Made by a program: the position numbers and the translations under genes
Assembly: GCF_031181185.1 (NCBI RefSeq)
Contig: NZ_JAPSKZ010000019.1
Coordinates: forward strand, 1 to 32,969
Length of the DNA stretch: 32,969 nt
Source of the DNA: Phenylobacterium sp.
Lineage (GTDB): Bacteria > Pseudomonadota > Alphaproteobacteria > Caulobacterales > Caulobacteraceae
Direction: 5' to 3'
In this document: one piece after another, positions 10,220 to 16,025 of the stretch
Numbering within the stretch: position 1 is the first letter of the stretch
Layout of the letters: each line of letters begins with the position of its first letter
Notes under the pieces: generated by a model
Told to the model about the DNA's origin: nothing
What the model saw: the letters and a program-made list of their open reading frames with translations, nothing else
Database searches by the model: none

Positions 10220-11641
10220 ATGTCCGACACACGCCTCCTGGACCCCGGATTCACCCCTGCGGGCGAGGACGCCTGGCGCGCGCTCGTCGCCAAGACGCTG
10301 GGCGACAAGCCGTTCGACAGCCTGGTGAAATCGACCGTCGAGGGGTTGGCGATCCAGCCGCTCTACGCCCAGGCGCCGCAGCCCGCCGCCTTCCCGCCGC
10401 GCCCGTTCGACGCCGAGCGCCCTTGGGACATCCGGGCGGTTTCCGCCCATCCAGATCCGGCGCGCGCCAACCTCGAACTGCTGGCCGACCTGGAGGCTGG
10501 GGCGGCCTCCGTCACGCTGAAGATTGATCCGGCCGGCCAAACGGGCGTCGCCGTGGGTTCGGCCGAGGGTCTCGCGACCGCGCTCAAGGATGTAATCGTC
10601 GAACTGGCGCCGGTGGGGCTCGACGCGGGCTTCCTGGGGCCCAGGGCCGCCGACTGGCTGCACGCCTTCGCCAAGTCCTCGCCCGGCGCGAAGCTGAACT
10701 TCCACCTGGATCCCTTGAGCGCCTTCGCCGAGGCCGGCGGCAGCGAGGGTCCGATCGAGAGCCACCTGGTCAGCGCCGCCACCGTCGCCGCGCGGCTCGC
10801 GCAGCCCTATCCGCACGCCCAGCTGTTCCTGGCCTCCGGCCGTGTCGTCCACGAAGCCGGCGGAGGCGAGGCGCTCGAGGTCGCCTTCGCCGCGGCCGCC
10901 GCGGTCGCCTACGCCAAGGCGCTGGTCCGCGCGGGCGTCGCGATGGACGAGGCTTTCGCCCGCATCACCCTGGGGCTCTCCGCCGACGCGGATTACTTCG
11001 TGACCATCGCCAAGCTGCGCGCCGCTCGGGTGGTCTGGGCGCGGATCGCCAGCGCCTGCGAGGCCAGCCCGCAGGCCCGCATCGAGGCTCGCTCCTCGCG
11101 CCGGATGCTGGCCGCCAAGGACGCGTTCACCAACATGATCCGCCTGACCGCCGCCGGCTTCGGCGCGGCCGTGGGCGGGGCCGATGCCGTCCAACTGGGC
11201 GCGTTCACCGACGCGCTGGGCCTGCCGACCGCGTTCGCGCGCCGCCAGAGCCGCAACACCCAGCTGGTGCTGATGGAAGAGGCCTTCCTTGGCCGCGTCG
11301 CCGACCCGGCCGCGGGTTCCGGCTACATCGAGGGGCTGACCGACCAAATCGCGCGCGCCGCCTGGGCGAAGTTCCAGGCGATCGAGGCCGCCGGCGGCCT
11401 GATCAAGGCGCTCGAGACCGGCGAGGTCGCCCGCGAGGTGGAGGCCGCCAACGCTGCCCGAGGCGAGCTGAAGATCGTGGGCGTCACCGCCTTCCCGCCC
11501 GCCGAGGACGCGCCGGTCGAAGTGGAGCGCGCCACGCCCAAGGCCGTGGAAGCGCCGTCCGTGCGCCTGCCCGGCCCTGACAGCCGCTGCTCGCCGCTCA
11601 AGCCCATGCGGCTCTCCGAAAAGTACGAGGCCGCCCAATGA
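10220..11641 (+). CDS. mutA: Methylmalonyl-CoA mutase small subunit
   Basis: This is the non-catalytic partner of the heterodimeric B12 enzyme that interconverts methylmalonyl-CoA and succinyl-CoA in propionate, odd-chain and branched-chain catabolism. It has 473 residues. Family features include [25 protein letters not shown], the TIM-barrel segments [14 protein letters not shown] and [20 protein letters not shown], and a late [11 protein letters not shown]. The ATG at 10220 fits the family start; no strong ribosome site is seen. It ends where the barrel-linker ends ([12 protein letters not shown]), so the degenerate B12-fold domain found at the C-terminus of longer small subunits is absent. 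Its stop overlaps the large-subunit start as ATGA. Confidence 0.93.
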
Positions 11642-13797
11642 CCGGCTTCCCAGATTTCTCCGCCCTGCCCTTCGACGCCGAACGCGCAGGCGTCCCGCCC
11701 GTGACCGGCGCCGCCTGGGACACGCCAGAGGGCATCCCCGTCCGACCGGGTTACGGCCCGGCCGACGCCGAGGACTTCGCCAGGCTCGCCGGGTATCCCG
11801 GGCTCGCGCCCTTTGTCCGCGGTCCGTACCCGACGATGTACGCGACCAATCCGTGGACCATCCGCCAGTACGCGGGCTTCTCCACGGCCGAGGACTCCAA
11901 CGCCTTCTACCGCCGCAACCTGGCGGCCGGTCAGATGGGCCTGTCCATCGCCTTCGACCTGGCCACCCACCGCGGCTACGACTCGGACCATCCGCGTGTG
12001 CCCGGCGACGTCGGCATGGCCGGCGTGGCGATCGACAGCATCCTCGACATGCGCACGCTGTTCGACGGCATCCCGCTCGACAAGATGAGCGTGTCGATGA
12101 CGATGAACGGGGCGGTGCTGCCGATCCTGGCGCTCTACATCGTGGCCGCCGAGGAACAGGGTGTGCCGCACGAGAAGCTGACCGGCACGATCCAGAACGA
12201 CATCCTGAAGGAGTTCCTGGTCCGGAACACCTACATCTATCCGCCCGGTCCCTCGATGCGGATCATCGCGGACATCTTCGCCTACACGTCGAAGGAGATG
12301 CCGCGGTTCAACTCGATCTCGATCAGCGGCTACCACATCCAGGAAGCCGGGGCGACGCTGGACCTGGAGCTGGCCTACACCCTGGCCGACGGCATTGAAT
12401 ACGTCCGCGCCGGCGTCGCGGCGGGCATGACCGTGGACCAGTTCGCTCCGCGGCTGTCCTTCTTCTGGAACGCCGGCATGAACGCCTTCATGGAGATCGC
12501 CAAGCAGCGGGCCGCCCGCCTGCTCTGGGCCAAGCTCATGAAGCAAGAGTTCGAGCCCAAGGACCCGCGCTCGCTATCGCTGCGCGCCCACACCCAGACG
12601 TCCGGCTGGTCGCTGGCCGCCCAGGACGTGTTCAACAACGTCGCCCGCACGGCGATCGAGGCGATGGCGGCCACCGGCGGCCAGACCCAGAGCCTGCACA
12701 CCAACAGCCTCGACGAGGCGCTGGCCCTGCCCACCGACTTCTCGGCCCGGATCGCGCGCAACACCCAGCTGTTCATCCAGCTGGAGAGCGGTCAGACCCG
12801 GGTCGTCGACCCCTGGGGCGGCAGCTACTACGTCGAGGCCCTGACCGCCGCCATCGCCGAGCGGGCGCTCGCCCACATCGCGGAGGTGGAAGCCTTAGGG
12901 GGCATGGCCAAGGCGATCGAGGACGGCTTGCCCAAGCGCCGCATCGAGGAGGCCTCGGCCCGCACCCAGGCGCGGATCGATAGCGGGCATCAGACCGTCG
13001 TAGGCGTGAACCGCTACCGCCCCGCGGTCGCCGACGAGATCCCGGTGCTGAAGGTCGACAACTCGGCGGTCCGCAACGCCCAGATCGCCAAGCTGAACCG
13101 TCTGAAGGCCGAGCGCGATCCCGAGGCGGTCGCCGCCGCCCTCGATGCGCTGACGGCCGGCGCCGCCGGAAACGCCAACCTGCTGGAGCTTGCGGTCGCC
13201 GCCGCCCGCGCCAAGGCCACGGTGGGCGAGATCTCCTACGCGCTCGAAAAGGTGTTCGGCCGGCACAAGGCCAAGGCCGATGCCGTGAAGGGCGTGTACC
13301 TCCGCGAGTCCGGCGACACGCCGGCGGCCGCCCGCGCCCGCGCCATGGCCGAGGCCTTCCGCCAGGCCGACGGCCGCAAGCCGAGGGTCATGGTCGCCAA
13401 AATGGGCCAGGACGGCCACGACCGCGGGCAGAAGGTGATCGCCTCCGGCTTCGCGGACCTGGGTTTCGACGTCGAGATCGGGGACCTTTTCCAGACGCCG
13501 GCCGAAGCGGCGGCCGAAGCCGTCCAGGCCGGTGTGCACGCCGTCGGCGCAAGCTCCCTGGCCGCCGGCCACCTGACGCTGGTGCCCGAGCTGAAGGCGG
13601 AGCTCGCAAAGCTGGGGCGTCCTGACATCCTGGTGTTCGTCGGCGGCGTCATTCCGCCCGAGGACTTCAAGGCGCTGGAGGAGATGGGCGTGGCGGCGAT
13701 CTTCCCGCCCGGCACCGTCATCCCCGAGGCGGCTATCGAGGTCCTGGACCGCCTGAACGAGCACCTCGGCTACGCCCAGGAGCAGGCGGCGCAGTAG
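11638..13797 (+). CDS. mutB: Methylmalonyl-CoA mutase large (catalytic) subunit
   Basis: The predicted protein has 719 residues, the usual length for the catalytic subunit. The TIM barrel carries [20 protein letters not shown], the substrate and radical-control region, and [12 protein letters not shown]. The C-terminal cobalamin domain has DGHDRG at 592-597, with H594 the expected lower cobalt ligand, and GGVIPPEDF near the end. It converts (R)-methylmalonyl-CoA to succinyl-CoA with adenosylcobalamin. It is translationally coupled to mutA by ATGA. No epimerase or MeaB chaperone gene is in the window. Confidence 0.97.
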
Positions 13798-13834
13798 CCT
13801 CGCCCGACAATCGACCCCTCCTTTGCGAAAGCCT

Positions 13835-13860
13835 GGAACAGGCGTCCTCCGCCTCTGGTT
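13835..13860 (+). promoter_or_regulatory. EcfG-type general stress promoter candidate
   Basis: GGAAC (13835-13839) is followed after 18 bases by GTT (13858-13860), that is GGAAC-N17-gGTT. This fits the alphaproteobacterial general stress sigma factor consensus (GGAAC-N16/17-CGTT) apart from the first base of the -10 element. The predicted transcript would begin near 13867, leaving about 24 bases before the ATG at 13891. It precedes two hydrophilic stress-like proteins. Confidence 0.6.
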
Positions 13861-13890
13861 GGCTCCCTGAACCAGATGCCGGAGAGGAAC

Positions 13891-14124
13891 ATGTCGGAAG
13901 CAGACTCCAACAACCGCTCGGACGTCCCCCGCGACCGGTCCGAGGAGGACCGCAGCTTTGACGCCGAACACGGAGCTCAGGGCGCACCGAACGGCAAGGC
14001 GCGGGACCGCGGCTCGAGCGCCGACGCGCCCGGGGCCGACTCCGTGATGCCGGGCCGCGAGTTCGGCGCCGGCAGCCAGGTCGATGACGGTCCTGACGAG
14101 ACCGCTGGCGCCGGCGGCGCTTGA
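13891..14124 (+). CDS. Small disordered hydrophilic protein
   Basis: The predicted protein has 77 residues and is almost entirely Asp, Glu, Arg, Ser, Gly and Ala, with no hydrophobic core, Cys, Trp or membrane segment, so it is probably intrinsically disordered. I do not recognise a family. The ATG at 13891 was chosen because GGAGAGG stands just in front of it; an in-frame ATG at 13876 lies before that site and is less likely. The stop is 10 bases before the next gene, so the two are probably co-transcribed from the stress-type promoter upstream. Proteins of this kind are common in general-stress regulons of alphaproteobacteria, which is an inference. Confidence 0.7.
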   Translation: MSEADSNNRSDVPRDRSEEDRSFDAEHGAQGAPNGKARDRGSSADAPGADSVMPGREFGAGSQVDDGPDETAGAGGA

Positions 14125-14134
14125 GGAGAGGGCC

Positions 14135-14848
14135 ATGCCCGATAAGCACCCGAACACCGTCCGCTGGGGCGGACCCGGCGCCAGCCACGAAGACCGCACC
14201 AAGCCGATGCCGCGGCCGCAGCCGGGCCAGCCCGAGGGCGCGGCAAGCACCAATCCTCGAGTTAGCCAGGAGTCCGGCGGCGGCGGCGAGCGCGACGAGA
14301 AGCACAGCCACGTCGACGCCTTGCGCAGCTCGAAGTCACACACCACCGGCACGCCCAGTCCGACGTCCAGCGACGACTGGCGGCGCAACCGGTCGCGCCA
14401 CGATCGCGCGGCCGAGATGGCCTCGTCTGAAGACACCGGCGAACCCCGCAGCTTCCGGGCGGGCGACGGTCACGAGGCGGGATCGCCCGACGCGCCGGAC
14501 GCAGGTCACGGCACCCCGGTCCAGGTGCACTTCGACAGCGAGGTTCCCGGCGTCGCCGGCGAAGCGGAGCAACGGGTGCGGCGGGCCATCGCGCGTTTCG
14601 ACCGGGACCTTTCGGACGTCCAGGTCTACCTGACTGACGAGAGCGGCATAGGCTCGCCAGGGCCGCGAAGCTGCACGATCCAGGCGACGCCGCACCGGGG
14701 CGAGACGATCGCCGTGACCGAGACCGCCGGCCAGATGGACAAGGCCGTCACCATGGCTGCGCGCGAGCTCGTGCGGCGGCTGTCCGAGAGCTTCGGTTAC
14801 GGCGGCGGACAGCCCGACGCCGCCGGCGAAGCGGCGCCGCAGGCCTGA
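14135..14848 (+). CDS. Disordered protein with C-terminal HPF/RaiA-like domain
   Basis: The predicted protein has 237 residues. The first 125 or so are low-complexity, rich in Gly, Pro, Ser, Asp, Glu and Arg. From about residue 127 a compact domain follows: VQVHFDSEVPGVAGEAEQRV, then VQVYLTDESG, CTIQATPHRGETIAV and MDKAVTMAARELVRRLSESF. The beta-alpha-beta-beta-beta-alpha order, the first helix ending in FDRDL and the last helix with paired Arg match ribosome hibernation promoting factors. The domain probably binds ribosomes or RNA. HPF proteins start with this domain, whereas here it sits at the C-terminus behind a long tail. GGAGAGG precedes the ATG at 14135. It is likely expressed with the small gene just upstream. 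Confidence 0.7.
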   Translation: MPDKHPNTVRWGGPGASHEDRTKPMPRPQPGQPEGAASTNPRVSQESGGGGERDEKHSHVDALRSSKSHTTGTPSPTSSDDWRRNRSRHDRAAEMASSEDTGEPRSFRAGDGHEAGSPDAPDAGHGTPVQVHFDSEVPGVAGEAEQRVRRAIARFDRDLSDVQVYLTDESGIGSPGPRSCTIQATPHRGETIAVTETAGQMDKAVTMAARELVRRLSESFGYGGGQPDAAGEAAPQA

Positions 14849-14945
14849 GGAGGCCCACCGCCGGCATCCTGGCGAGGCGCCGAGCTATCTCGACGGGAGC
14901 GGTGCGACGCGTCGGACCATGCGCCACCCTACACCAGGCGAGCCC

Positions 14946-16025
14946 CTACTCCGCAGGTTGCGGAGCGACGAGCTTCCCGCGGGCCGGCCTGCGGCGCGTC
15001 TGCTTGATCAGGAACGACCAGAGGCCGAAGCCGCCCAGGCCCGCGAGCGCCAGGCCCGAAAGGAAGACCACGGCCTCGTAGGCGAAGCCGCCTACCTTGC
15101 CCGCATGTACGGGATAGAAGGCGTTGTAGGCCCGCTGGCCCGTCCCCAGCGCCATGGCGTCGACGACGCCCAGCACGCGCTCGTCCGACGGATCGATATA
15201 GACGACCGTGCGGCCGTTCGGGTGCCATTCGCCGGGCTGCTTCATGCGGATGGACGCCGGCGCGCCGGGCTTGGCGGGGCCGGCGGCGGTGCGCAGGACA
15301 GCGTCTGGGAACTGCGCCTGCGCGGCCGAGAGAGCGCGCATCCAGTTGACCTCCCCCTCCTCGGCCTTCGGCGGCTTCATCGGAGCGGGACCCGGCGCGG
15401 CCTGCGTCATCAGCTTCTGAGAGGTCTCGTTGAAGATGATCGCCCCGCCGGTCAGGCACAGTACGAACACCGGGACCGCCGTGATCATGCCGAGGTTGCG
15501 GTGCGAGCCCAAGAGGTCCGCGCGCCGGCTGATGGTCTTCGGCCAGACCCGCGCGCCGAAGCTGCGCCACACCGGCAGCCAGACGACGACGCCGGTGATC
15601 ACCAGGACGGCGCCGGCAAGGCCCGCGACGCCGACCACGAAGTCGCCCGTCTCGCCCGCCAGCAGCCGGTGGTGCAGCTCGAAGAGCCAGCCCTCGACGC
15701 GATCGGTGGGCTCGAAGCGGGTCAGCAGCCGACCGTCGGCCGTGGCGTAGCCCAGGTCCTTGTCCTCGAAGTACACCCGGTGGACGCCCATGCCGGCGCC
15801 GCCGAAGACGACGCTGCGCAATTCGCCCGCGGTCTGCGCCTCCAGCGTCTGGAGCGAGGCGCCCAGCGCCTGGGGCGTGGGCTGAAGGCCTGCCCGCGCC
15901 TCGGGCACGCTCAGCTTGATCCAGGGGTCCTCCAGCACCAGCAGGCTGCCGCTGAGACCCAGCGCGACGAGGATCAGCGCGAGGATCGCGCCGGCCCAGG
16001 CGTGCAGGGTCCTGAGGAAGCCCAT
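14946..16025 (-). CDS. PepSY-associated TM-helix protein (iron-uptake associated)
   Basis: The predicted protein has 359 residues of the PepSY_TM (PiuB-like) family, an inner-membrane protein often adjacent to TonB-dependent siderophore receptors. It has an N-terminal helix (TLHAWAGAILALILVALGLS), then a periplasmic PepSY region, two central helices (FVVGVAGLAGAVLVITGVVV and ITAVPVFVLCLTGGAIIFNE) and a last one near residues 320-342. The HAWAG and HRLLAGETGDF motifs are typical. Relatives are thought to act in reductive iron release or periplasmic processing. The ATG shares one base with the receptor stop (TGATG), so they form an operon. Confidence 0.88.
   Translation of the reverse strand: MGFLRTLHAWAGAILALILVALGLSGSLLVLEDPWIKLSVPEARAGLQPTPQALGASLQTLEAQTAGELRSVVFGGAGMGVHRVYFEDKDLGYATADGRLLTRFEPTDRVEGWLFELHHRLLAGETGDFVVGVAGLAGAVLVITGVVVWLPVWRSFGARVWPKTISRRADLLGSHRNLGMITAVPVFVLCLTGGAIIFNETSQKLMTQAAPGPAPMKPPKAEEGEVNWMRALSAAQAQFPDAVLRTAAGPAKPGAPASIRMKQPGEWHPNGRTVVYIDPSDERVLGVVDAMALGTGQRAYNAFYPVHAGKVGGFAYEAVVFLSGLALAGLGGFGLWSFLIKQTRRRPARGKLVAPQPAE

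Follow-up and report, generated by a model that had tools for sequence, protein, structure and literature searches.

Conserved disordered arms fused ahead of an HPF/RaiA-fold domain, with sites resembling general-stress promoters, in Phenylobacterium and Acetobacterales

In E. coli HPF and RaiA (YfiA), the domain described by PF02482 begins at or near residue 1. The same fold is found in the short HPF bound to the 70S ribosome of Acinetobacter baumannii (PDB 7m4z, chain v), a protein of 116 amino acids. Long HPF and LrtA join the HPF domain to a second part, which is disordered in LrtA; this extra part is C-terminal (PMC6321479). Here we describe a gene in a 32,969-nucleotide stretch of a Phenylobacterium sp. 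genome (contig NZ_JAPSKZ010000019.1; hereafter the window). This gene (14135..14848, forward strand) encodes a 237-amino-acid fusion protein whose domain shares the E. coli fold but follows about 125 residues of a different kind. The fusion is like long HPF and LrtA in having an additional part, but it carries this flexible arm on the N-terminal side of a hibernation-type domain, opposite to theirs. In the open-access literature, we found no paper on such an N-terminal arm or on control of ribosome hibernation by the sigma factor EcfG.

The protein has three parts, all encoded on the forward strand. The arm (residues 1–90; 14135..14404) was delimited by matches to stand-alone proteins, the variable linker (residues 91–125; 14405..14509) by alignment, a selection test, and a structural model, and the HPF/RaiA-fold domain (residues 126–225; 14510..14809) by PF02482, a profile match, an AlphaFold model, and Foldseek. 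The domain is of a divergent short-HPF type that is nearest to 7m4z, and the arm, which is a small protein by itself in other genomes, is fused ahead of it via the linker.

We compared a profile of 23 relatives (10 fusions, including the window protein, and 13 stand-alone short HPFs) with the PDB. Only one distinct sequence was found at E ≤ 0.01: chain v of 7m4z, with the title "Ribosomal subunit interface protein" (E = 1.5e-24, profile positions 126–233). This chain is matched from its own residue 1, so it has no N-terminal arm, unlike the window protein. With the 237-amino-acid protein as the sole query, the same chain was reached at E = 0.014. AlphaFold, given an alignment of fusions and short HPFs, predicted a β-α-β-β-β-α fold at residues 129–220 (strand 129–133, helices 140–151 and 153–158, strands 159–168, 178–186, and 192–198, and helix 201–220). 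The block means of the predicted local distance difference test (pLDDT) were 83–96 over residues 131–220, in a model that is not independent of HPFs because its input alignment contained stand-alone ones. Foldseek gave 29 matches at E ≤ 0.001. By title, these are chains of the HPF, protein Y, or RafH type or chains from 70S ribosome entries (hibernating, chloroplast, or other); the best PDB matches are to HPF/protein Y chains. Residues from about 126 to 225 are predicted to carry the HPF/RaiA fold, which bears out an earlier note on this DNA that had placed an HPF/RaiA-like domain at the C-terminus. That note had proposed both structure prediction and a family search, and the second of these fell short: the PF02482 match (residues 145–217, E = 6.5e-4) reached 20.8 bits, under the cut-off of 23.7.

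Some relatives are closer to ordinary short HPFs. The P. kunshanense fusion clears the PF02482 cut-off (31.9 bits), and 20 of the 23 members of alignment A6 match PF02482 at E ≤ 0.01. (J426 was trimmed to residues 1–216 in alignments A5 to A7, and A7 is also without P. kunshanense.) Within a small set of open reading frames, a stand-alone short HPF is matched by the J426 fusion at E = 2e-20 and by the P. kunshanense fusion at E = 9e-26, so these two fusions connect the divergent domain of the window protein with ordinary short HPFs.

The fusion recurs as a family, with at least 10 unbroken genes, and the order of arm, linker, and HPF domain is common to Phenylobacterium and Acetobacterales. 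Five are from Phenylobacterium (the window, P. deserti, the metagenome-assembled genome RYN_472, J426, and P. kunshanense), and five are from four genomes of Acetobacterales (Roseicella aerolata, Pararoseomonas baculiformis, Roseococcus sp. MDT2-1-1 with two, and Falsiroseomonas algicola). A tenth fusion genome is metagenome-assembled (L087), and its reading frame is broken. Our genome counts are lower bounds, because only 7 or 9 candidates were scored per genome: in the family to which the window belongs, 5 of 390 genomes have the fusion, and these five are from a single genus; in the family of Roseicella (299 genomes), 42 show a match to at least part of the profile, with an unbroken fusion in 3 and the broken one in 1; and 12 of 385 genomes drawn evenly from the class match some part of the fusion. 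In a tree of HPF domains (52 rows, with L158 left out), the Acetobacterales fusions form one clade, J426 groups with P. kunshanense, and the window, P. deserti, and RYN_472 share a stem that is 1.5 changes per column long. The test did not reject a single clade for all ten fusions (p = 0.678), although this is no demonstration of one. The match of the J426 fusion (L043, 3108–3929) ends at residue 208 and its C-terminal end diverges, possibly due to a sequencing error or a frame change.

Roseococcus and Falsiroseomonas have a stand-alone short HPF alongside the fusion. No further short HPF was found in the five Phenylobacterium fusion genomes at a threshold that missed three of the fusions themselves. 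We rejected mutual exclusion of the fusion and the stand-alone short HPF as a rule, both because of those missed fusions and because Roseococcus and Falsiroseomonas have both. The window's genome has another PF02482 gene (contig C278, 63.2 bits), and second PF02482 matches are present in genomes G010, G025, G029, G359, G400, and G402.

Residues 1 to about 60–70 of the arm match stand-alone proteins of about 76–84 amino acids in Caulobacteraceae, and residues 1–90 match stand-alone proteins of 88–104 amino acids on contigs of Roseococcus, Roseicella, Sabulicella, Rhizobium, Pseudorhizobium, and Falsiroseomonas. These proteins have no HPF domain, and the two that we scanned against Pfam and NCBIfam had no match. 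Because the disordered half of the fusion is matched by stand-alone proteins of 76–104 amino acids from other Alphaproteobacteria, it is not filler. We compared seven chosen pairs of eight genes (J426 and P. kunshanense were left out). The ratio of nonsynonymous to synonymous changes per site (pN/pS) was 0.07–0.28 for residues 1–66, 0.26–0.61 for residues 67–125, and 0.20–0.41 for the HPF part, and the arm had the lowest of the three values in all seven pairs. Within each group (Phenylobacterium or Acetobacterales), the synonymous divergence (dS) of the pairs compared was 0.58–2.35. The stand-alone matches and this purifying selection led us to drop the idea of a low-complexity filler. The earlier note had described about 125 disordered residues. 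Low pLDDT agrees with disorder (block means of 45–71 over residues 1–120, where the sole helix, at 79–98, has low confidence), but the disorder is not generic, because arms of this kind make up a conserved family with stand-alone members. We also considered whether the fusion is carried on plasmids and dropped the idea: among 72,556 records there was a single match, to arm residues 4–64, on a Rhizobium plasmid.

A site that resembles a general-stress (EcfG-type) promoter, GGAAC-N17-GGTT, is at 13835..13860 on the forward strand (GGAAC at 13835–13839 and GGTT at 13857–13860). It begins at -56 relative to the first ATG, which belongs to an open reading frame for a 77-amino-acid hydrophilic peptide (13891..14124, forward strand); the fusion gene follows after 10 bases. 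These coordinates, confirmed in the sequence, are those of the two hydrophilic genes and the promoter from which the earlier note set out. EcfG-type motifs that the window's site matches are reported in PMC6599016 and PMC7083833, and in the latter, GGAAC and GCAAC are the two most frequent -35 boxes of Sphingopyxis, with flexible -10 boxes. The window alone has two matches to GGAAC-N16/17-SGTT where 0.73 are expected, and at least two were seen in 20 of 100 shuffles. The site is no better than chance on its own; the support for a promoter comes from relatives. With a loose pattern that was widened after examples had been seen (GNAAC-N16/17-N[GA]TT), 6 of 10 fusion loci have a site at -52 to -77, as compared to 0 of 10 on the opposite strand and a background of 2.4% per 150 bp. 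(We searched 150 bp upstream, and for the window the distance is counted from the 77-amino-acid gene, not from the fusion gene.) P. kunshanense, with AGAAC-N16-CGTT at -60, is excluded from the six. Stand-alone arms were also considered. A scan for the arm pattern gave 229 encoding places, and our named loci are the best 80 of these; GGAAC-N16/17-NGTT lies within 400 bp upstream in 33 of the 70 named loci that have no fusion versus 8 of 70 on the other strand. Of the 12 free-arm loci closest to the fusion arms (L072, L073, L075, and L078–L086), two have the site (L082 and L084).

The window's genome also encodes the putative regulators: contig C20 has PhyR domains, NepR (55.8 bits), and, in the gene after nepR, sigma-70 regions 2 and 4. 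Across the genome, GGAAC-N16/17-CGTT occurs 49 times versus 33 in a reversed control, a mild excess. General-stress control of the fusion gene is supported, as far as sequence can predict it, and this part of the earlier note held up. As a separate observation, the phyR/nepR/sigma factor hub (L201, 9176–10993) has seven GGAAC-N16/17-CGTT sites within about 8 kb; in the gap between phyR and nepR, one site is directed at phyR and another at nepR.

The fold, the fusion, its conservation, and the promoter-like sites are results of computation. Our preferred reading, to which we give a probability of roughly 0.6, is that the 237-amino-acid gene makes an HPF-type protein that is induced by general stress and whose arm is delivered to ribosomes. 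EcfG would switch on the gene, and the HPF domain would dock, in the manner of short HPFs, on the small ribosomal subunit. The arm, brought there by the domain, would act on the ribosome surface or on neighboring molecules by protecting, clustering, or recruiting. A disordered stress protein would then be delivered to idle ribosomes rather than floating free. We know of no targets for many small disordered stress proteins, and this natural fusion names a likely and testable one, the ribosome, for one such family. A bolder version gives the working role to the conserved disordered arm, as a sequence-specific stress protein that in these species is mounted on an HPF domain to coat or gather idle ribosomes. 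We regard this version as speculative and as rather unlikely to be right in full; if it is true, these proteins would make up a new class of disordered protectants that are targeted to ribosomes, with the HPF domain as an address label.

Several results weigh against our preferred reading. Among the 38 positions that are conserved in at least 12 of the 13 stand-alone short HPFs, the window protein retains 17, P. deserti 12, RYN_472 14, and the other seven fusions 26–28. In contrast, the stand-alone rows, each left out in turn, retain 36–38 of 38–42, in a comparison that favors them because all 13 references are from Caulobacteraceae, so that relatedness plays a part. The window's domain has lost 21 of the 38, and in it a conserved lysine of the last helix is replaced by glutamate. 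These losses are the strongest evidence against a simple hibernation activity for the window protein, and because of them, its ribosome binding is putative. Furthermore, the window protein by itself is below the Pfam cut-off and matches no NCBIfam model, and the AlphaFold model was built with HPFs in its input. The fusion is rare in both families searched. The P. kunshanense fusion (L044, 3115–3684) keeps the HPF domain and arm residues 1–25, and most of the arm and the linker are gone. As for the promoter, four of the ten fusions lack even the loose pattern, and none of the other nine has a site with the strict GGAAC. Because three family features were tested and not found (a score above the Pfam cut-off, the conserved residues, and placement at the N-terminus, as the domain starts at about residue 126), we use the name "HPF-domain fusion" and not HPF.

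Alternatively, in the window protein and its two close relatives, the HPF domain may no longer occupy the decoding center but bind another RNA or protein, with the arm as the main active part and the domain as a remodeled anchor. This is possible, but we doubt it, since the fold is predicted with high confidence, the domain is under purifying selection (pN/pS of 0.25–0.41 in three Phenylobacterium pairs), and the other seven fusions retain most of the conserved positions. It seems improbable to us that two genes were joined by accident, with each half functioning separately and no joint mechanism. Such an accident would fit the existence of each half alone, the variable linker, the rarity of the fusion, the loss of most of the arm in P. 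kunshanense, and the stand-alone short HPFs that Roseococcus and Falsiroseomonas also retain. Yet the order is maintained in two bacterial orders, across the synonymous divergences given above, and one Roseococcus genome has two copies of the fusion. We give least credence, and very little, to an ordinary hibernation factor whose arm is merely an entropic bristle or a solubility tag. The arm is indeed hydrophilic and has low pLDDT, but its sequence was more constrained than the domain's in all seven pairs, and a bristle would be expected to keep its composition and not its sequence.

The 77-amino-acid peptide is linked to stress independently of the fusion, of which it is not a proven partner. 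Among 101 genomes of the genus, strong matches were found only in the window's genome and in P. deserti, along with two weak ones (E = 0.002 and 0.006). The relative in P. deserti is about 0.5 Mb from that genome's fusion, so the disordered partner of the earlier note is not supported as a fixed one, and we dropped the idea that it is obligate. It may be a separate product of the stress regulon that shares a promoter with the fusion at the window's locus. In P. deserti (L064), the relative comes after a CBS-domain gene (86.7 bits), and an EcfG-like site, GGAAC-N16-GGTT, is upstream. We also dropped kinship between the peptide and the product of the hydrophilic gene often found ahead of the arm gene, as no resemblance could be seen by eye.

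The pair of genes in the window is preceded by a gene for methylmalonyl-CoA mutase (11638–13797), and neither a sigma-70-like promoter nor an intrinsic terminator was found at 13700–15000. Among the best 80 of the 229 places that encode the arm pattern, phmmer detected the arm in 78, and 39 also have a second hydrophilic gene, MSKAPPIPPEQ...QDR, which often precedes the arm gene. In L006, L009, L011, L012, L016, L018, and others, this two-gene unit has an EcfG-type site about 20–35 bases before its first gene. The gene that is often ahead of the unit is probably nadC.

The more general idea that a disordered partner is made together with an HPF protein fared better than the pairing with the 77-amino-acid peptide. 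Directly upstream of 17 of the 18 stand-alone short HPF genes that we fetched from Caulobacteraceae is a small hydrophilic gene whose product ends in APSGAxDAEGxRPVLERSRKxR or a similar sequence; the exception is L060. A GNAAC-type site is within 250 bp for 10 of these 17 (L014, L015, L031, and L046–L059, with the upstream gene of L059 taken in a doubtful frame), as compared to 2 on the other strand and a background of 5.2%, and a strict GGAAC is upstream of 1 of the 17. Through such neighborhoods or through fusion, short HPF and small hydrophilic proteins are repeatedly associated.
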